Source of the DNA: Gammaproteobacteria bacterium
GTDB lineage: Bacteria; Pseudomonadota; Gammaproteobacteria; Xanthomonadales; Wenzhouxiangellaceae
Length of the DNA: 64,000 nt
Direction: 5' to 3'
NCBI GenBank assembly: GCA_003567685.1
Contig: PWYW01000099.1
Coordinates: 1-64,000 of the forward strand
Shown: positions 16,675 through 26,313 of the stretch, one piece after another
Numbering within the stretch: the first letter of the stretch is position 1
Layout: each line of letters starts with the position of its first letter
Notes under the pieces: generated by a model
What the model saw: the letters and a program-made list of their open reading frames with translations, nothing else
The model's database searches: none
What the model was told of the DNA's origin: nothing
Translations under genes and position numbers: made by a program

Positions 16675-16755
16675 CGGGTCAAGGGCATGGGTGGCTAAAC
16701 GTTTGCGGCGGGGGGCTGTCTACGAGGTCATGACAGTGCGTGATATTATGAACCA

Positions 16756-17127
16756 ATGACAAAGGCGTTTGCCCAGCGATCTGCAGTGCTGTTCAGCCTG
16801 GTGCTTCTGGCCCAGGTGATCATGCCGTGGCACGCCATGCACATGGCGGCGCTGGCCGACGTCTCTGCTTCGGACGACGCTCAACAGACCGCGCCGCTGG
16901 TTGCCGGTTCACCCTGTCATCCACCCATGGCCGCTAATGGCGGCAACGACGAAAGCGAACCGCCCATCGTCGGCTTTTGCGAATGGCTTTGTGCCCAGGC
17001 ACAGTGCACGCCGGCCTTTGACGGCCTGATGCAACTGGTGGCTGCCCCCGCAGGCCCGCCATCCGGTCTGCTGACCAATTTCGACTCCCTGGTTTCCCCG
17101 GTTCCGACACCCCCTCCAATCGTTTGA
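16756..17127 (+). CDS. Small secreted Cys/His/Met-rich protein, first gene of putative metal operon
   Basis: 123 residues, family not recognised. The N-terminus is a signal-like hydrophobic stretch (AVLFSLVLLAQVIM) followed by PWHAMHMAAL. Possible metal ligands are HAMHM, PCHPPM and CEWLCAQAQC. The tail is Pro-rich (VPTPPPIV). The start is uncertain: no good ribosome-binding site precedes the ATG at 16756, and a -10-like TATTAT at 16744-16749 would give a near-leaderless message; GTG at 16789 is an alternative. It precedes a barrel-like protein, a MerP-like protein and a MerT-like carrier, so a metal-binding role is inferred from context and composition. Confidence 0.6.
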   Translation: MTKAFAQRSAVLFSLVLLAQVIMPWHAMHMAALADVSASDDAQQTAPLVAGSPCHPPMAANGGNDESEPPIVGFCEWLCAQAQCTPAFDGLMQLVAAPAGPPSGLLTNFDSLVSPVPTPPPIV

Positions 17128-17199
17128 CTTCATGCCCCTGAAGTAACCGCCGCCTGGCCTTTGCCGGTGGTGGCAACCCTTATTGCATGGAGAAAAACA

Positions 17200-17847
17200 A
17201 TGATTTACCGAATTCTGGCCGTGGCAGCGGCCGGCCTGCTGGCCCTGTCGGCTGACCCGGCCTGGGCCCGCCCGATTACCTACACGGGTGGTCAGGTGCT
17301 GGTCACCGAAGCCCAGGCCGATCAATGGCAGGCTCGCTATACCTACTCGCATTCCTTCCGCCACTCCACCTCGGTGGGCTATCTGCGCATGACCGATTTG
17401 CGTGAAACCGGCGAGCTGGACGTGGCCTACCTGCGCGTAGCAGGCCTGGCCGGCCGATGGAACCGCCCCGGTAGCCAGGGCAATCTGTTCTTTTACGGCG
17501 GGCTTGGCCACGCTCGAACCGACATCGGCAACGGCGCCAGCGGACACGTTGGCTTCCAGGCCGATTGGGAAACCCGGCGCATCTACACCGCGGCCATGAG
17601 CGAACTGCACGACGGCTCCGGCTGGCGCCATCGCAACGACACCCTGGCCCTGGGTATTGCCCCCTTCGAGCACGACTTCGACCGCACGGCGGTCTGGCTG
17701 GTGGGCAAGGGCATGCGCACCACCGGCATGAACGACAGCGGCCGAAAAGGCGCCCTGGTCTTGCGGCTCTTCAACCCAAGCTGGTGGCTGGAAGCCGGAG
17801 TGGATACCAACGGCAAGCCGCTGGCCTTTTTCATGATCAACCTGTGA
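17200..17847 (+). CDS. Probable outer-membrane beta-barrel-like exported protein in metal operon
   Basis: 215 residues; the ATG at 17200 has GGAG eight bases upstream. Signal peptide MIYRILAVAAAGLLALSADPAWA. The mature part has many short alternating aromatic/polar strands (ARYTYSHSFRHSTSVGYLRM, GNLFFYGGLGHARTDIGNG, TAVWLVGKGMRTTG, WWLEAGVDTNGKPLAFFMIN), as small outer-membrane barrels do. It ends in Leu rather than Phe or Tyr, so barrel insertion is not certain. No family recognised. It sits between the small secreted Cys/His protein and the MerP-like gene on the same strand. Confidence 0.65.
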   Translation: MIYRILAVAAAGLLALSADPAWARPITYTGGQVLVTEAQADQWQARYTYSHSFRHSTSVGYLRMTDLRETGELDVAYLRVAGLAGRWNRPGSQGNLFFYGGLGHARTDIGNGASGHVGFQADWETRRIYTAAMSELHDGSGWRHRNDTLALGIAPFEHDFDRTAVWLVGKGMRTTGMNDSGRKGALVLRLFNPSWWLEAGVDTNGKPLAFFMINL

Positions 17848-17891
17848 ACCGAACAAACGAACACGCATTCAACGAATCTGGAGATATCACC

Positions 17892-18239
17892 ATGAACAAG
17901 CTTATTCAAACCACTTTGATGGTCTTTCTGCTGGCCCTGCTGTCAGCCCCGCTGGCCGCTGACACGGCCAATGCCGAAGCCAACAACGTGCGCGTGGAAG
18001 TCAACGGCCTGGTGTGCGCCTTCTGCGCGCGCGGCATTCGCAACAGCTTCAACCGCGAAGAGGCCACTGCCGACGTGCTGGTCAGCCTGGAAAACCGCCT
18101 GGTGGCGGTGGAGTTCAAGCCGGGCATGAACCTGAGTGACGAGGCCATCACCAAGCTGCTTACCGATGCCGGTTACAGCGTGGTCGACATCACCCGCACC
18201 GACGAAAGCGTGGCGGCCATTCGTTCGAGCATCGAGTAA
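17892..18239 (+). CDS. Periplasmic heavy-metal-associated (HMA, MerP-like) protein
   Basis: 115 residues. ATG at 17892 is preceded by CTGGAGATATCACC. Signal peptide MNKLIQTTLMVFLLALLSAPLAA. The mature part is a single HMA ferredoxin-like domain: VRVEVNGLVCAFCARGIRNSF carries the CxxC metal site, followed by the second beta-alpha-beta half ending LLTDAGYSVVDITR. This resembles MerP or copper-chaperone domains that capture a soft metal in the periplasm. The stop overlaps the next start in TAATG, so it is translationally coupled to the MerT-like carrier. Metal identity is unknown. Confidence 0.88.
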   Translation: MNKLIQTTLMVFLLALLSAPLAADTANAEANNVRVEVNGLVCAFCARGIRNSFNREEATADVLVSLENRLVAVEFKPGMNLSDEAITKLLTDAGYSVVDITRTDESVAAIRSSIE

Positions 18240-18634
18240 TGGACGAACGCTTGGACGAGCAACCGATCACGGTTGACCGGCAAGGCCTGTGGGGCGCCTT
18301 TGGCGCCCTGCTGGCCAGCGCCGGCACCCTGGTGTGTTGCGTACTTCCGGCGGTGATGGTCAGCCTGGGCGCCGGCGCGGCGCTGGCCAGCCTGGTCACC
18401 GCCGTGCCGCAGTTGATCTGGCTTTCCGAGCAGAAGCTGCTGGTATTCGGCGTGGCCTTTGCCGTGCTGGCGCTGGCCGGCTGGCTGTTGTGGCGGGCAC
18501 GCTTCGCCCCATGCCCGGCCGACCCCAAACTGGCCGCCCACTGCATGCGGCTTCGTCGCTGGTCACAACGGCTCTACATCGTGGCCGTGGTCGCCACCGT
18601 GCTGGGCGCAATCTTCGCCTTCGCGCTAGTTTGA
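18239..18634 (+). CDS. MerT/MerC-like inner-membrane metal transporter
   Basis: 131 residues with about three hydrophobic segments. The first contains a Cys-Cys pair (GTLVCCVLPAVMVSLGAG), as in MerT and MerC; a second Cys pair lies in a loop (CPADPKLAAHC), comparable to the cytosolic cysteines of MerT. The start overlaps the MerP-like stop (TAATG). No merA, merR or merB is within the window, so mercury specificity is not supported; another soft metal is possible. A good intrinsic terminator follows. Confidence 0.75.
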   Translation: MDERLDEQPITVDRQGLWGAFGALLASAGTLVCCVLPAVMVSLGAGAALASLVTAVPQLIWLSEQKLLVFGVAFAVLALAGWLLWRARFAPCPADPKLAAHCMRLRRWSQRLYIVAVVATVLGAIFAFALV

Positions 18635-18662
18635 AAGTGGACGCTTGAGCAACTGGCTGATA

Positions 18663-18694
18663 GGCCGGATTGCCCATGCAGTCCGGCCGTTTTT
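18663..18694 (+). terminator. Rho-independent terminator of the metal operon
   Basis: GGCCGGA (18663-18669) and TCCGGCC (18682-18688) form a perfect seven-pair stem with a 12-base loop, followed by GTTTTT. It lies 29 bases after the MerT-like stop codon and marks the end of the four-gene unit. Confidence 0.85.
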
Positions 18695-19748: not shown

Positions 19749-21338
19749 ATGCGTAATTACTTGATAGGTTTCATTGCTGTTGTCTTTTGCGCGTCATTAT
19801 GGGCAGCGCCGATTACTTATCAGGGTCAGCTCCAGCAGCAAGCACAACCCTTTACAGGTTCTGTTGACTTGGAGTTCCGATTATTTGACGAGCTGGTTGA
19901 TGGCGCTCAGGTTGGACCGTCGCTTGAGGTGCGGAATGTTTCAGTGGTCGATGGTCTGTTCCAGGTTGAGCTGGATTTCGGGCCTGGGGTTTTTGATGGA
20001 ACTCAGCGATATCTTGAGATCTATGTTGATGGCGTTGCATTAACTCCACGCCAGAGGGTGGCAGCGGCTCCGGTTGCATTATTTGCGCTTGATGGCAATC
20101 CAGGCCCAGAAGGCCCGCAAGGGCCTCAGGGCGACCCGGGCCCTCAGGGCGTGCCGGGTGAGCAGGGCCCGGAAGGCCCGGAAGGCCCCGAAGGCCCGCA
20201 GGGGCCTGCCGGTGAAGCCGGCCCTCAGGGCTTGGCTGGTGAGCAAGGTCCGGAAGGTCCAGTGGGCCCAGTCGGCCCGCAGGGGCCTCAGGGCGACCCG
20301 GGCCCCCAGGGCGTACCGGGCGAGCAGGGTCTAGAAGGGCCGACGGGCCCAGTCGGCCCGCAGGGTCCTCAGGGTGTGCCGGGAGAACAAGGGCCTGTCG
20401 GCCCGCCTGGTCCCTCAGGAATAGCCAGCTTGATTTATCACACTGAAACCAGGGTTCAACAGACTGACAACTCAGTTCAGGATCAAAATATTATCTGCCC
20501 CGATGACCGGCAGGTGATTTCTGCGGGGTGGCGAGTTATTGATCTGAATCCGTTCAGTCTCTATGTGCACGGCTCATGGCCGAATGTAAACAATTCTTCG
20601 AGATGGGATTTTCAATTTAGGTACGCTGGAACCGGTAATAACACCGCCACCCTTCAGCTCTGGGCGCTATGTGCTCAGAGTGACGGTTCCGAGAATGGCG
20701 GAGGGCCCGAAAATGCTTGGCCGGACGACTATGTGCATGTTGGCGCTCCAACAGAAATAGTGGATGTGACCAATCCAATTACGGGTAGAACGTGGATGGA
20801 TCGGAATCTTGGTGCCAGTCGGGCCGCGCAAAGCGTCGATGACACTGAGGCGTATGGTTCTTATTTCCAGTGGGGTAGATTTGCCGATGGTCATCAGTTC
20901 AGGTTTTCCGATACTCAGACTCAGCTGAGTGATTCTGATCGCCCGAATCACGGGCGTTTCATACTTTCCCAGAATACTAATAATTTTTCTGATTGGCGGT
21001 CGCCTCAGAACAGTTCCATGTGGGGTAATGACGGTTCCATTAACGATCCTTGCCCGACAGGCTATCGCATTCCAACGGCTTCTGAGCTACAACAGGAGAT
21101 GGCCAGCTGGAATGAAAACAATAAGCATGGAGCATTTGACTCGCCCCTGCGCTGGCCTTCTGGAGGCTCTCGAAGGAGGAACGACGGGCTGGTCACTGGT
21201 CAGGGCTCATTTGGTTTTGCCTGGGCCGGAAGTTCTGGTACCGAAGCACGAATCTTGCGTTACCTTGGTAATCAGGCTGACGTAATTACGTTGGGGCGGG
21301 CAGTTGGAGCCCCTGTGCGATGCATAAAAGAGCTTTGA
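19749..21338 (+). CDS. Secreted collagen-like protein with C-terminal FISUMP domain
   Basis: 529 residues. Signal peptide [21 protein letters not shown], then a beta-rich head (ITYQGQL...[10 protein letters not shown]...APVALFA) to about 115. Residues about 117-225 are 36 uninterrupted Gly-X-Y triplets rich in GPQ, GPE and GEQ, able to form a collagen triple helix. From about 336 ([17 protein letters not shown]) to the end is a Fibrobacter succinogenes major-paralogous (FISUMP) domain, with [15 protein letters not shown] typical of it. Codon use is less GC-rich than neighbours, which suggests transfer. Probably a trimeric surface fibre; partner unknown. Confidence 0.85.
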
Positions 21339-21897
21339 AATAGCAATTGTTTTTGTTGACACCGTGTCCGAAGCCTTTGTATTCACCGGGCTGGGAGCAG
21401 CGCGGGCGCAATCTGTTTTTGAGCTACCGGGCTTCGGGGTCATGTTGTCGGGCCTGACCCAAGGCATTGAGTAGACGCTTGTGTTTAGCACAAAAGATCC
21501 GATTTCCTGAATTTCCGGGCTACAAGATCAAGACAGTCGAACGCTTCAGGTCAGAGGCAACGTTCCATTTTGGGCTTTTCCAAAGTGCTCGAGTTAACGG
21601 AAACCTGACTGATAAACTGCACCCCACCGCATTCCTGGCCATCTCTTGACGTCGAGTTAGCCTCAGAGTTTTTCCTTGATTACCTCCTGGCGAATCTCGG
21701 CCTTTCCCCGCTCATCGTCATGCATGTTGCTTAGCCTGTAGTTCTCCGGCTCAGGTTCCTTGAAACGGGCCATGAGGGGATGTACTTGCCGCTTTTCGAG
21801 CGGACTACTCTTTCCGGCTGGATTTCCAGCGGTGGACTGGTTTGCGGTCAATCCGGGATAATGGCGGGCTTGTCTTGCTGATTTCTCAAGTGTTTTG
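21339..21897. other. Intergenic region without recognisable genes
   Basis: 560 bases between the collagen-like gene and the large glycosyltransferase. Short open frames are present on both strands, but none has a ribosome-binding site or recognisable sequence. No RNA gene, terminator or repeat was identified. Confidence 0.5.
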
Positions 21898-24800
21898 ATG
21901 ACTGCACCGCTTGCTGATGCCGCGTTGAACCTGGTTTGTCTGCCCGATGCCGCTGGCGGGGTTGATTCTGCGTGGCTCGATTTGTTGAGAACGCAGTTTC
22001 CGCAGGCGCGTTTTTGGGCGGCTGGTCGTCTGGCCGGGTCATTGGGGCTTGACGCGCTGCCGGCGGGTGGTTCGGTGATGGAAGGCGTGGCCGAGCCGGC
22101 TGCCAAGGATCCGTCCTCGGCCTGGTTGCTGCTGGAAAGCGGGCTGGTGTTGCCGGAAGGCTTGATGCCTCGGCTGCGCGGATGGGCCAGTCGTTTGCCG
22201 GCCGGTAGCCGTCTGGTGCTGCCGGGCAATTACGACCGGCGCGTGGATCCTTTGCTGGGCTCGGAAATCCATCTTTCCGCGTCACAGGTGGATACGGCGA
22301 TGGGCCTGGTGGCGCCGCTGAATGCTTTGTCAGTGGCGGATCTGCCGTTGCGCGCGGTGTTCATCACTCCGGGGGCTTCAGCGTCGGATAGCGATAGCCA
22401 CTGTCTTTTGGCGGACGATATGTATGTGCTGGCCCCCGACCAGCCGCGCGGCCAGCTTTCGAAGGACGAGGCGGTGCATCCGGGCCAACTGGCACTGGGC
22501 CAGTTACGCCTGGGGCTGGAGCGGTTGGCCTCGGAAGGGTTGCCGGAACTGCCGCGCACCGGTTTCGATGACAAGCCGGTGGTGCTGCATATCAGTCACG
22601 CCTGGGGCGGCGGCATTGCTCGCTGGATTCGCGATGTGGTCAAGGCGGATGACCAGGCTCATCATCTGGTGCTGGCTTCCAACGCGGCCCGAGACAGCCG
22701 CCACTACGGCGAGCGTCTTCGGCTGTTTGCCGCCGGCCCGGACCGGGGGCTGCTGGCTGAATTCCCGTTGTCCCCGGCCATTGCCGACACCGCGCGGGTC
22801 CATGCCGACTATGCCGCGGTGTTGAGCTCGGTGATTGGCCGTTACCGGGTGGGCAAGATCATTGTGTCGTCGCTGATTGGCCATGCCCTGAATGCCTTGA
22901 CCACGGGCTTGCCCACGCTGCAGGTGCTGCACGATTTCTACCCGGCGGTGCCGGTGCTGGATCGCGACCCGCTGGACTTCTGCCGACCAGAGGGCGGGCT
23001 GGATATGTCTGCCTGCCTGAATGCATTGAAGGCCGGCGGGCTGTTCGACCGCCGTGAACCTGAGCACTGGCACGCGCTGCGCCAGGCCTGGCTTCAGGCC
23101 GCCCAGCATGAGTCCTTTCGCATGCTTGCCCCTAGCCAGCACGTGGCCAAGCGCTGGCAGGCGCTGTTTGATCAACCCTTGCCGGAAATCGCGGTGGTTC
23201 CGCACGGCTGGCCGGGTGATTGCGCCGCCAGCACGCCGCCGGCCCGTCGCCCTCGGGCGGATGGCAAGTTGTCGCTGGTGGTGGTCGGTCGCCTGAACGG
23301 CGGCAAGGGGCTGAATTTGCTTGAAGCCGCGCTGCCAAGGTTAAATGAGCGCGCCCACATCACGCTGCTGGGTGCCGGCCAGGCGGCCATGTCGCTGTTT
23401 GGCAAGGCCGGCGTCGATGTGGTGTTGAATTACCAGCCCGATGAATTGCCCGCCCTGTTGGATACGGTAGCGCCCGAAGCGGCGCTGTTTTTGTCCACCG
23501 TGCCGGAAACCTGGAACTACGTGCTCAACGAACTGCGCGCGCTCAAGCTGCCGGTGGCGGCTACCGATATCGGGGCCTTTGCCGAGCGTATCGAGGACGG
23601 CAAGGACGGCCTGCTGTTCGAGCCCAACGCCGATGCATTGGTCGCGGTGGTTGACCGGCTTATTGAGCAGCGCGATCGCCTGCACGAGCTGGCTGAAGCC
23701 GGCCCGCAAGAGCCGGGTATGCCGGAAACGCTGGCCCGCTACCGTGAACTGCTGCCCTTTGCCGACGTATCGGCTACCGCCCAGCCGCTGCTCGCGGCCC
23801 TGGGCCCGCAGACGGCCACGGCCCTGGCCTTTCAGCTAAGCCGGCAAAACACCCGGCTGAGCGCCCAGGCAGAGCGCATCGAGACGCAAGAGGCCGAGCT
23901 GGCCCGGCGTGCCGAATGGGCCGAGCGCCTGGGGCACCAGCTGGCCAATCGTGATCAACGCGTGTTGCGCCAGCAGCAAGAAATCGACACCCTTTCGCGC
24001 CAGGTTCAATCGCTGCACGAACAGCTCGCAGACTTGACGGCCCGTTTGCACGCCGAAAGCGGCCGTGCCCAGTCGGCCGAAGACCATCTGATGATGGTTC
24101 ACCAGAGCTGGTCGTGGCGCCTGACCCTGCCGCTGCGGCTGTCCATGCGGGCGCTGCGGTCGGCTCGCGAGGCCCGGCTTTGGGACCCGCGCGGCTGGGT
24201 TCCCGGCCTGAAAACCATCCGCCAGGGCTTGGCAGAGCAGGGCGCCAAAGCGGCCCTGATGAGCTGGTATGTCGGGCAGGGCTGGCTGCCGGCGCCGCCG
24301 GTGGCGGCACACCCGCTGGACGAGCAGGACGTGGAAGCCATTACCGGCCCGGCGATTGACCCGGCCCGTCTGAACGAGCCGGTCACCCATCGGCCGCCGG
24401 CGAATCCGCTGATCAGCATCGTCATTCCGGTGTTCAACAAGCGCGAGGTGACTGCCGCTTGCCTGCATAGCCTGGTGAATACCGAGGCCGGCCGGGAATT
24501 TGAAATCATCGTGGTCGACGATTGTTCCAGCGACGACACGCCCGACTACCTGGCTGCCTGCCGGGGCCTGACCGTGCTGCGCAACGAGGAAAATGCCGGG
24601 TTCATCGACACCTGCAATCGCGGCGCGGCGGCGGCCCGTGGTGACTTCCTGGTTTTCCTGAACAACGACACCACCCTGACGCCTGGCTGGCTGGACGCGC
24701 TGGTTCGGGTGTTCGAACAACAGGATCGGGTGGGCGTAGTCGGTGCGCGGCTGGTCTATCCGAACGGCCGCTTGCAGGAAGCCGGCGGCATTATCTTCAA

Positions 24801-26313
24801 TGACGCCAGCGGCTGGAACTACGGCCGCAACCAGCACCCGGACGCCCCGCAGTACAACGTGCTCAGCGATGCCGACTACGTCTCTGGCGCTTGCCTGGCC
24901 ATTCCCCGGCAACTGTTTGAGTCGATGGACGGCTTTGACGTGCGCTACCGCCCGGCCTATTACGAAGACACTGACCTGTGTTTTCGGGTGCGCGAGGCGG
25001 ATTACCGGGTGGTCTACCAGCCGCTCTCGACCGTGGTTCACCACGAAGGCGCCAGCGCTGGCACTGACCTGGCCTCGGGCATGAAGCGTTATCAGGTGGT
25101 CAACCAGCAGCGCTTCCGCGAGCGCTGGGCCGAGGCGCTGCAGCGCCAGCCCGCGCCGCCGGCCGATGTTGACCGTCAGGATCCGGTCCGTCATCAGCGT
25201 TTCCGGCCCCATGCCGGCCATGTGCTGGTGATGGACGCGGTGATGCCGCAGCCCGATCACGACTCCGGCTCCGTGCGCCTGGTGGCCATGCTGACGCTGA
25301 TCCGCGACATGGGCTTCCACGTCAGCTTCGTGCCGGAAAACGGCCAGCGCCTGGACGCTTACGGCGATGCGCTGGCCGAGGCCGGTATCGAGGTGTTGGC
25401 CGGGCCGGTATTCACCGGGCTGGACGCCTGGCTGGCCGAGTTTGGGCCTGAGCTTGACTGGGTAATCGTCAGCCGTCACTACGTGCTGGCGCCCTGGCTG
25501 GACCGCATTCGCCAGCATTGCCCGAAGGCCCGGCTGGTGTTCGACACGGTTGATCTGCACTACCTGCGCGAGCAGCGCGAGGCCGAGATTGCCCAGTCTG
25601 ATGCCATGGCGGCCGAGGCCGCGCGCACCCGCGTTCAGGAACTGCGCCTGATTCGGGCCTGCGACCAGACCCTGGTGGTTAGCCCCATCGAGCAGACCCT
25701 GCTGGCCCGCGAAGTGCCCGAGGCGGACGTGCGCATCGTGTCCAATATTCATTCGGTGCACGGCAGCGCTACGCCGTGGGCGCAACGCAAGGGCCTGATG
25801 TTTGTCGGTGGCTTCCAGCACGTGCCCAATGTGGATGCCGCGCTCTGGCTGGTCGAGTCGATCTTCCCGCTGATTCGTGCCGAACTGCCCGATGTGGAAC
25901 TGCATTTGATTGGCAGCCGCATGCCGCGCGAGATCCTGGCCATAACCCAGCCCGGCGTTCGCGTTGAAGGCTTCGTGGCCGATCTTGACCCCTTCCTGGC
26001 CGGCTGCCGGATTTCGCTGGCGCCGCTTCGTTATGGGGCCGGAGTAAAAGGCAAGGTCAACCAGGCCATGAGCCACGGCTTGCCGGTGGTGGCCACGCCC
26101 TGTGCTGCCGAAGGCATGTTCCTGGTCGACGGCCAGGACGTGCTGGTGGCCGAACAGGCCCAAGACTTCGCCCGCGCCGTGGTGCGCCTGTACCGCGACC
26201 GCCAGCTATGGGAGCGCTTGTCAGCCGGTGGCCTGGCCAACGTCGAGAATTATTTTTCACTTGATGCGGCCCGGCGGGCCTTGTCCGATCTGCTGCAGGT
26301 CAGTCAGGATTGA
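21898..26313 (+). CDS. Giant three-domain glycosyltransferase (GT4-like / coiled coil / GT2 / GT4-like)
   Basis: 1471 residues from the ATG at 21898. A GT-B domain lies in the N-terminal half (VVLHISHAWGGGIARWI near 220; VVVGRLNGGKGLNLLEAAL near 460; NELRALKLPVAATDIGAFAE near 545). About 640-745 is a Gln/Glu/Arg-rich coiled coil. A GT2 domain occupies about 835-1075: PLISIVIPVFNKREVTAACL, VVDDCSSDDT, FLNNDTTLTPGWLD, SGACLAIPRQLF and YEDTDLCFRVREADYRV. The third domain, about 1105-1470, is again GT-B-like (RKGLMFVGGFQHVPNVDAAL, PLRYGAGVKGKVNQAMSHG). Such multidomain enzymes build surface polysaccharide at the inner membrane; sugar specificity is unknown. It converges with a GT2 gene only 13 bases away. 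Confidence 0.9.
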   Translation: MTAPLADAALNLVCLPDAAGGVDSAWLDLLRTQFPQARFWAAGRLAGSLGLDALPAGGSVMEGVAEPAAKDPSSAWLLLESGLVLPEGLMPRLRGWASRLPAGSRLVLPGNYDRRVDPLLGSEIHLSASQVDTAMGLVAPLNALSVADLPLRAVFITPGASASDSDSHCLLADDMYVLAPDQPRGQLSKDEAVHPGQLALGQLRLGLERLASEGLPELPRTGFDDKPVVLHISHAWGGGIARWIRDVVKADDQAHHLVLASNAARDSRHYGERLRLFAAGPDRGLLAEFPLSPAIADTARVHADYAAVLSSVIGRYRVGKIIVSSLIGHALNALTTGLPTLQVLHDFYPAVPVLDRDPLDFCRPEGGLDMSACLNALKAGGLFDRREPEHWHALRQAWLQAAQHESFRMLAPSQHVAKRWQALFDQPLPEIAVVPHGWPGDCAASTPPARRPRADGKLSLVVVGRLNGGKGLNLLEAALPRLNERAHITLLGAGQAAMSLFGKAGVDVVLNYQPDELPALLDTVAPEAALFLSTVPETWNYVLNELRALKLPVAATDIGAFAERIEDGKDGLLFEPNADALVAVVDRLIEQRDRLHELAEAGPQEPGMPETLARYRELLPFADVSATAQPLLAALGPQTATALAFQLSRQNTRLSAQAERIETQEAELARRAEWAERLGHQLANRDQRVLRQQQEIDTLSRQVQSLHEQLADLTARLHAESGRAQSAEDHLMMVHQSWSWRLTLPLRLSMRALRSAREARLWDPRGWVPGLKTIRQGLAEQGAKAALMSWYVGQGWLPAPPVAAHPLDEQDVEAITGPAIDPARLNEPVTHRPPANPLISIVIPVFNKREVTAACLHSLVNTEAGREFEIIVVDDCSSDDTPDYLAACRGLTVLRNEENAGFIDTCNRGAAAARGDFLVFLNNDTTLTPGWLDALVRVFEQQDRVGVVGARLVYPNGRLQEAGGIIFNDASGWNYGRNQHPDAPQYNVLSDADYVSGACLAIPRQLFESMDGFDVRYRPAYYEDTDLCFRVREADYRVVYQPLSTVVHHEGASAGTDLASGMKRYQVVNQQRFRERWAEALQRQPAPPADVDRQDPVRHQRFRPHAGHVLVMDAVMPQPDHDSGSVRLVAMLTLIRDMGFHVSFVPENGQRLDAYGDALAEAGIEVLAGPVFTGLDAWLAEFGPELDWVIVSRHYVLAPWLDRIRQHCPKARLVFDTVDLHYLREQREAEIAQSDAMAAEAARTRVQELRLIRACDQTLVVSPIEQTLLAREVPEADVRIVSNIHSVHGSATPWAQRKGLMFVGGFQHVPNVDAALWLVESIFPLIRAELPDVELHLIGSRMPREILAITQPGVRVEGFVADLDPFLAGCRISLAPLRYGAGVKGKVNQAMSHGLPVVATPCAAEGMFLVDGQDVLVAEQAQDFARAVVRLYRDRQLWERLSAGGLANVENYFSLDAARRALSDLLQVSQD

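Follow-up and report, generated by a model that had tools for sequence, protein, structure and literature searches.

The window analyzed here is the whole 64,000-nucleotide stretch at positions 1 to 64,000 of contig PWYW01000099.1, from a gammaproteobacterium of the family Wenzhouxiangellaceae (assembly GCA_003567685.1). It carries on its + strand an operon of four open reading frames (ORFs), designated p1 to p4 (123, 215, 115 and 131 aa), which span 16756–18634 and are followed by a terminator with an 11-pair stem. The last three genes form a conserved unit, and the first is probably a regulatory leader. The reading preferred here, held tentatively and with a little less than even confidence, is that of a copper-induced operon spanning the envelope, which is controlled by a CutF-type leader and in which Cu(I) would more likely move outward. 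The evidence obtained by computation consists of the gene order, its conservation, a barrel model for p2, the MerT homology of p4, a masked Shine-Dalgarno sequence and the motifs of p1. The features are as follows.

16744..16749, + strand: -10-like box TATTAT, six bases 5' of the p1 start codon
16756..17127, + strand: p1, 123 aa, CutF/CopL-like leader with putative signal peptide, CxxxC and C-terminal PPPIV
17128..17192, + strand: p1-p2 hairpin, 5' arm 17128–17135 and 3' arm 17185–17192
17200..17847, + strand: p2, 215 aa, predicted 12-stranded outer-membrane beta-barrel of an unnamed family
17892..18239, + strand: p3, 115 aa, exported MerP/CopZ-like HMA domain with CAFC
18239..18634, + strand: p4, 131 aa, inner-membrane MerT-like protein with conserved Cys33, Cys34, Cys92 and Cys102
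18663..18694, + strand: intrinsic terminator, 11-pair stem (18663–18688) and T-rich tail

In the proposed scheme, p1 would be translated from a leaderless mRNA and exported during its synthesis. Copper bound to the CxxxC of p1 would slow the ribosome at the C-terminal PPPIV, and the delayed ribosome would open the hairpin that hides the Shine-Dalgarno sequence of p2, allowing p2, p3 and p4 to be translated. By means of its cysteines, the inner-membrane protein p4 would either hand Cu(I) to p3, the CxxC protein of the periplasm, or accept it from there; p2 would serve as the outer-membrane channel, and the net flow would more likely be outward, for detoxification. Copper as the metal, the stalling, the transport and its direction are the elements of this scheme that we infer.

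The conserved p2-p3-p4 unit

A total of 51 loci were laid out, one of which (L170) repeats another (L036). The remaining 50, window included, comprise every p2 match of the searches except a fragment on contig C95. From Lysobacterales to Bdellovibrionota, p2 is followed on the same strand by p3 in 49 of the 50 loci and by p4 in 48, and the exceptions lie at contig ends: L125 ends just past p2, and L032 ends 277 nt past a shortened p3. One locus (L090) has an extra ORF between p3 and p4, and the two genes overlap in the window by one base (TAATG). The initial annotation had taken the genes for one soft-metal module, and this joint occurrence indicates that p2, p3 and p4 are not unrelated neighbors.

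The distribution of p2 is patchy. Of 61 close relatives, a set that includes the genome of the window, 10 have p2, as do 25/398 genomes of the order, 12/321 of the class and 4/398 of the phylum. A scan of named genomes gave 22 p2 loci, and the named taxa include Wenzhouxiangella, Lysobacter, Rudaea, Silanimonas, Panacagrimonas, Comamonadaceae, Kordiimonadaceae and Bdellovibrionota. No p2 was found on plasmids. The fragment mentioned above (L021; bases 4–186 of contig C95 in the window's genome, G000) encodes about 40–70 p2-like residues at the contig end and is perhaps part of a second p2 copy.

As proposed in the initial annotation, p2 is confidently predicted to be an outer-membrane barrel. 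The AlphaFold2 model has a mean predicted local distance difference test score (pLDDT) of 91.4, with 12 strands behind an N-terminal helix, and solved barrels align along its length. No Pfam or NCBIfam family reaches its cut-off for p2, no chain of the PDB was matched by sequence, and the Foldseek search returned nothing at an E value of 0.001 or better, the best matches (1.9e-3) being barrels. The copper barrel PcoB (7pge) aligns to the model with a Z score of 11.5 and a root-mean-square deviation of 4.3 over 163 residues. Many unrelated barrels score higher, up to Z 17.3, autotransporter and KdgM barrels among them, and the PcoB alignment therefore proves no kinship with p2. Kinship with CopB was rejected by sequence, with 0.8% in the profile comparison and no match to Pfam PF05275. 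CopB was not found in any of the eight p2 genomes searched, and it is present in 5 of 13 other genomes searched.

The initial annotation also described p3 and p4 as MerP-like and MerT-like, and both assignments are supported at the level of remote similarity. In p3, a CxxC (GLVCAFCA) lies behind a hydrophobic N terminus, and the Pfam HMA match (E 3.3e-4) is under the cut-off. The nearest families are domains of copper ATPases (Cu-ATPases), CopZ and MerP, all under their cut-offs; the MerP score (TIGR02052) is 29.7 bits against a cut-off of 92.55. For p4, no Pfam or NCBIfam cut-off is reached, and no match to MerT (PF02411) is given at E up to 1, unlike four true MerT proteins, which match Pfam MerT strongly. 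The p4 profile nevertheless matches that of true MerT at 93% (E 3.4e-7). Its four cysteines, which are invariant in 22 sequences, comprise a CysCys pair in the first predicted helix and two further residues about the second loop. In true MerT, the cysteines are arranged as two pairs, the second of which is spaced differently from that of p4. By profile and cysteine layout, p4 is thus classed as a remote MerT relative. Among matches of p4 to PDB profiles, two bacteriorhodopsin rows (E 0.3) were judged to be chance. In one assembly (L038:2094–2471), an in-frame stop lies near the end of p4.

Genes like p4 are commoner than p2, being found in 48 of the 321 class genomes at E up to 0.001, although four of the p2-less cases are weak. 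A p3-like ORF accompanies p4 in 27 of 29 fetched loci without p2 (all except L094 and L097). In 9 of 17 p2-less loci with a p3-like ORF, as read by eye, the pair is preceded by another barrel with a motif of the HDPVFGLGPH type (L100, L103, L105, L106, L109, L111, L112, L116 and L118); four of six such barrels scanned match Phenol_MetA_deg. Since another barrel can thus stand before p3-p4, the combination of a barrel with MerP-like and MerT-like partners may represent a wider, three-part arrangement. The p2 profile matches that of the HDPVFG barrel, which stands beside p3-p4 in other gammaproteobacteria, at 80% (E 1.4e-5), a likeness that could be due to shared barrel features; the HDPVFG barrel gives 3.3% against CopB. 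At times, these loci also hold thioredoxin-like, DsbD_TM and MerR genes.

On plasmids, p4 occurs in five records (four Variovorax and one Vibrio), and p2 was not seen in the two that were opened (one Variovorax and the Vibrio), in agreement with the plasmid-wide result for p2. The Vibrio diabolicus plasmid (L129, 5748–7392) carries a GDCCVxC (seleno)protein gene, the p4-like gene, annotated there with a heavy-metal-associated domain, and a hypothetical protein.

The leader gene p1 and its hairpin

The initial annotation had recognized no family for p1 and p2 and had suggested that the four parts together could carry a soft metal, perhaps as an undescribed metal module. Neither protein reaches a Pfam or NCBIfam cut-off, and to that extent the description stands, but a role of p1 as an undescribed metal carrier is not supported, and p1 fits the published CutF/CopL class of leaders (PMC9973294). 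It is probably not a carrier but a copper-sensing regulatory leader of the CutF/CopL type. This assignment is based on its missing Shine-Dalgarno sequence, its putative signal peptide, its CxxxC and PPPIV motifs, and a hairpin in the 72-nt gap to p2 that hides the Shine-Dalgarno sequence of that gene.

A -10-like box lies 6–11 nt 5' of the p1 start in 9 of 16 loci, compared with 22 of 640 background placements, and at the same spacing in only 1/15 p2 starts and 1/14 p3 starts. A Shine-Dalgarno core is found at 2/16 p1 starts, against 14/15 for p2 and 13/14 for p3, and the p1 of the window has none. The combination of the box with the missing Shine-Dalgarno sequence suggests that the p1 mRNA is leaderless. 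No full promoter was found by the sigma-70 scan.

In the window, the CxxxC of p1 is CEWLC and the protein ends in PPPIV. Among the 26 p1-like ORFs (<150 aa), all have PP in the last 15 residues and 19 have CxxxC, compared with 11% and 15%, respectively, of 778 control ORFs. The p1 profile was built from 16 of the 26, and the remaining 10 give the fairer count: 10/10 for PP and 6/10 for CxxxC, one of them (L032) being nearly identical to L031. As read directly from the residues, the p1 sequences begin with an evident hydrophobic stretch, a putative signal peptide. When applied to six loci fetched around copB, the p1 profile also picks up CopL-like ORFs in four of them (E 2.7e-9 to 0.003).

The p1-p2 hairpin of the window has a folding energy of −30.3 kcal/mol (z −4.69 relative to dinucleotide shuffles). 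Its 5' arm starts directly after the p1 stop codon, and the GGAG Shine-Dalgarno sequence of p2 sits in its 3' arm with a pairing probability of 1.0. Across the 24 testable p1-p2 gaps, this probability exceeds 0.7 in 17 (mean z −2.0), compared with masking in 2 of 13 control p2-p3 gaps (mean z 0.2), a rough comparison, as the control gaps are mostly shorter. The pairing partners are the first four bases past the p1 stop in the window and in L022, L023, L024, L028, L031 and L032, and the Shine-Dalgarno sequence is unmasked in some gaps (L027, L036, L095 and L030). Together with the motifs, the leader hairpin makes the regulation directly testable by a reporter.

The closest known system is CutF-CutO-CutG of Rhodobacter capsulatus, in which nascent CutF that has bound copper is exported with a delay, the stem-loop is opened and translation of cutO follows (PMC9973294). 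The window shares with it a short, putatively exported CxxxC leader, a proline-rich C terminus and a stem-loop hiding the next Shine-Dalgarno sequence, and p1 agrees in length, PP, close same-strand gene, CxxxC and masking stem-loop with the CutF-like genes described there. However, CutF controls a multicopper oxidase and a chaperone, whereas the leader of the window precedes a barrel, a MerP-like and a MerT-like protein, and stalling and the copper response are assigned here by analogy. Translation arrest of CutF or CruR had not yet been demonstrated as of 2024, according to PMC10987492. CopL, which heads copLAB in Xanthomonas and relatives, likewise is a small exported Cys/His ORF with an RPPI-type end, but p1 of the window scores 11.5 bits (E 0.35), far under the CopL_fam cut-off of 40 bits (NCBIfam NF033807), and the genes that follow it have no kinship with CopA or CopB. 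Within a single paper, copL is described both as a transcriptional activator and as a gene whose function is largely unknown (PMC10312155). CruR, the copper-responsive ORF heading the operon of BfrG in Bordetella pertussis, has a Cys motif and a C-terminal PP motif as well (PMC9426467).

The principle of sensor-leader control is thus already published. The barrel and the gene composition are unnamed in the libraries searched, no description of a leader-headed operon of barrel, MerP-like and MerT-like genes was found in titles and abstract openings of the open literature, and the transport set is a new combination. If the preferred reading is correct, it joins copper-sensing leader peptides with MerT-type carriers, known as mercury importers. 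It would also predict an ATP-independent copper route and give a first likely function to an unnamed barrel family, whose range extends from Bdellovibrionota to gammaproteobacteria that have genomes of close to 1 Mb.

The metal and the direction of transport

Among the 47 loci with upstream room, p1 is present in 26 and absent in 21. A CsoR-type repressor is found in 7 of the 21 loci without p1 (all seven confirmed by Pfam) and in none of the 26 with p1. It lies just after p4 in L090, L091, L092, L093, L096 and L099, and just before p2 in L174. One such protein could be aligned with copper CsoRs of solved structure, and the alignment includes the Cys, His and Cys positions that serve as ligands. 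Other copper genes within 5 kb are a multicopper oxidase (L038, L086 and L169), CusF (L086) and a cupredoxin (L042), and a P-type ATPase bearing an HMA domain lies within the same distance in L030 and L031. Copper genes, CsoR included, are near 13 of the 50 loci, a raw count with no background rate. The restriction of CsoR to loci without p1 and the copper-gene neighbors indicate, with fair confidence, that copper is the most likely metal. Genes for sigma factors of the extracytoplasmic-function type are divergent to p2 in L042 and L043; putative anti-sigma proteins there were set aside, as no family supports the label, and a small upstream protein in L040 was dropped as a cupredoxin, as it has no Pfam match.

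The initial annotation had suggested import into the cytoplasm. The regulators identified in relatives belong to types that respond to excess copper, and the Cu-ATPase pattern in the class sample leans to export, so that a net outward flow of copper is favored over an inward one, although not established. A response to excess copper is shared by CsoR and the CutF-type leaders and is consistent with a defense. In the class sample, 10 of 12 p2 genomes have no Cu-ATPase match (TIGR01511) that counts as strong, the threshold of E 1e-50 having been chosen after the data were seen, compared with 50 of 309 without p2 (Fisher P 1.3e-6); the association is tempered by counts copied by eye, genomes that are not independent, and kinship and genome size left uncorrected. 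Seven of these 10 genomes are 1.5 Mb or smaller. Among 33 genomes with clear p4 but no p2, only one is without a strong match. In 15 p2 genomes picked partly for a missing Cu-ATPase, 11 have no E1-E2 ATPase match and 13 have no heavy-metal match of the resistance-nodulation-division type over the cut-off, with weaker matches of that type in all 15.

A bolder form of the preferred reading, which we regard as doubtful, is that p2-p3-p4 constitute a copper exit independent of P-type ATPases. An outward-working MerT-type protein, a CxxC shuttle in the periplasm and a 12-stranded barrel dedicated to the route would be switched on by a copper-sensing leader peptide or CsoR, and they would act as a main copper defense where no P-type ATPase is detected. 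Five small genomes of 1.0–1.3 Mb (G201, G234, G313, G340 and G344) have p2-p3-p4 and no E1-E2 ATPase match; a CsoR-type gene follows p4 in four of them, and G344 has a p1-like gene.

Several observations weigh against outward copper transport under a CutF-type leader. In the genome of the window itself, two Cu-ATPases exceed the cut-off, so that no replacement is needed there, and such an enzyme is also present in 9 of the 10 p2 genomes from its order that were examined. To our knowledge, all known MerT proteins import, and the p4 model is weak (pLDDT 74.5). The p1 profile detects no p1 in 24 of the 50 loci (3 of those without room). A CopL_fam match at E up to 0.05 is given by 6 of 16 p1-like ORFs (best 7.5e-6), DUF2946 (PF11162) matches not the p1 of the window but 1 of 16 relatives (E 2e-4), and 11 of the 16 loci in the p1 alignment fail even a loose CopL/DUF2946 match with confidence. 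Cation diffusion facilitators lie near L034 and L164. Of the TonB receptors, those next to L093 and L125 come closest to ZnuD, a receptor for zinc, and the one at L090 resembles siderophore receptors most; none of the three reaches its cut-off. CruR also differs from the leader proposed here, in having CXXC, RAPP and a 162-nt gap, and in that copper shuts its operon off (PMC9426467).

The strongest competitor, although unlikely, is copper import, in which p2 or a TonB receptor would admit copper, p3 would take it and p4 would deliver it into the cytoplasm, in the manner of MerP and MerT with mercury, and the leader and CsoR would tune the supply. The homology of p4 to the importer MerT and the TonB receptors adjoining p2 in the three loci just named (L090, L093 and L125) agree with this, as does the control of a TonB transporter by the related leader CruR (PMC9426467). 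PcoB, a copper barrel whose fold may be similar, is argued to let copper in (PMC9210255) and elsewhere to act in efflux (PMC12509749); it resembles p2 as a small barrel in a copper-linked operon, but there is no sequence kinship. However, CsoR and CutF-type control imply copper excess, and import would be costly where p2 genomes show no P-type ATPase to clear cytoplasmic copper.

A module for mercury or another thiophilic metal (Hg, Cd, Zn or Ag) with a broad sensor is improbable. It would account for the MerT and MerP kinship of p4 and p3 and for the ZnuD-like receptors near L093 and L125, and in L089, L103, L108 and L118 a true MerT gene is located no more than a few kb away from the p2-less pair, which indicates that p3-p4 can share a mercury island. 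The regulators identified and several p2 neighbors are nevertheless of copper types, and MerA exceeds its cut-off in only 2 of 32 p2 genomes; in the window's genome, the best MerA match scores 390 bits, short of the 454 that the cut-off requires. The view of the initial annotation that no standard mer operon is involved is thereby upheld, and the operon differs from mer further in its barrel and in p3 and p4 scoring far under the family cut-offs.

It is also quite unlikely that p3-p4 are a thiol redox or delivery pair for periplasmic copper proteins, with p2 as a separate pore and no cytoplasmic transport, since the MerT-like cysteine layout of p4 suits metal passage through the membrane, even though thioredoxin-like and DsbD_TM genes can follow the p2-less pair (L109 by Pfam, similar ORFs elsewhere by eye) and a copper oxidase and CusF adjoin p2 in L086.

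Surroundings of the operon

The terminator that the initial annotation had placed at the end of the operon was recovered with its 11-pair stem and T-rich tail. Terminator-like sites in the scan number 3, compared with 2.4 expected in shuffles, so that the strength of the 18663–18688 stem, and not the count, singles it out. No other metal gene was seen directly beside the operon among the neighbors scanned, and MerR is absent among the five neighboring proteins scanned, the remainder of the window not having been searched for it. Upstream and divergent lies a bifunctional penicillin-binding protein. On the downstream side, an ORF that matches no family is followed by a collagen-repeat protein, the 529-aa product of 19749–21338 with collagen triple-helix repeats. 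At 21895–26313, a 1472-aa protein contains several glycosyltransferase domains.

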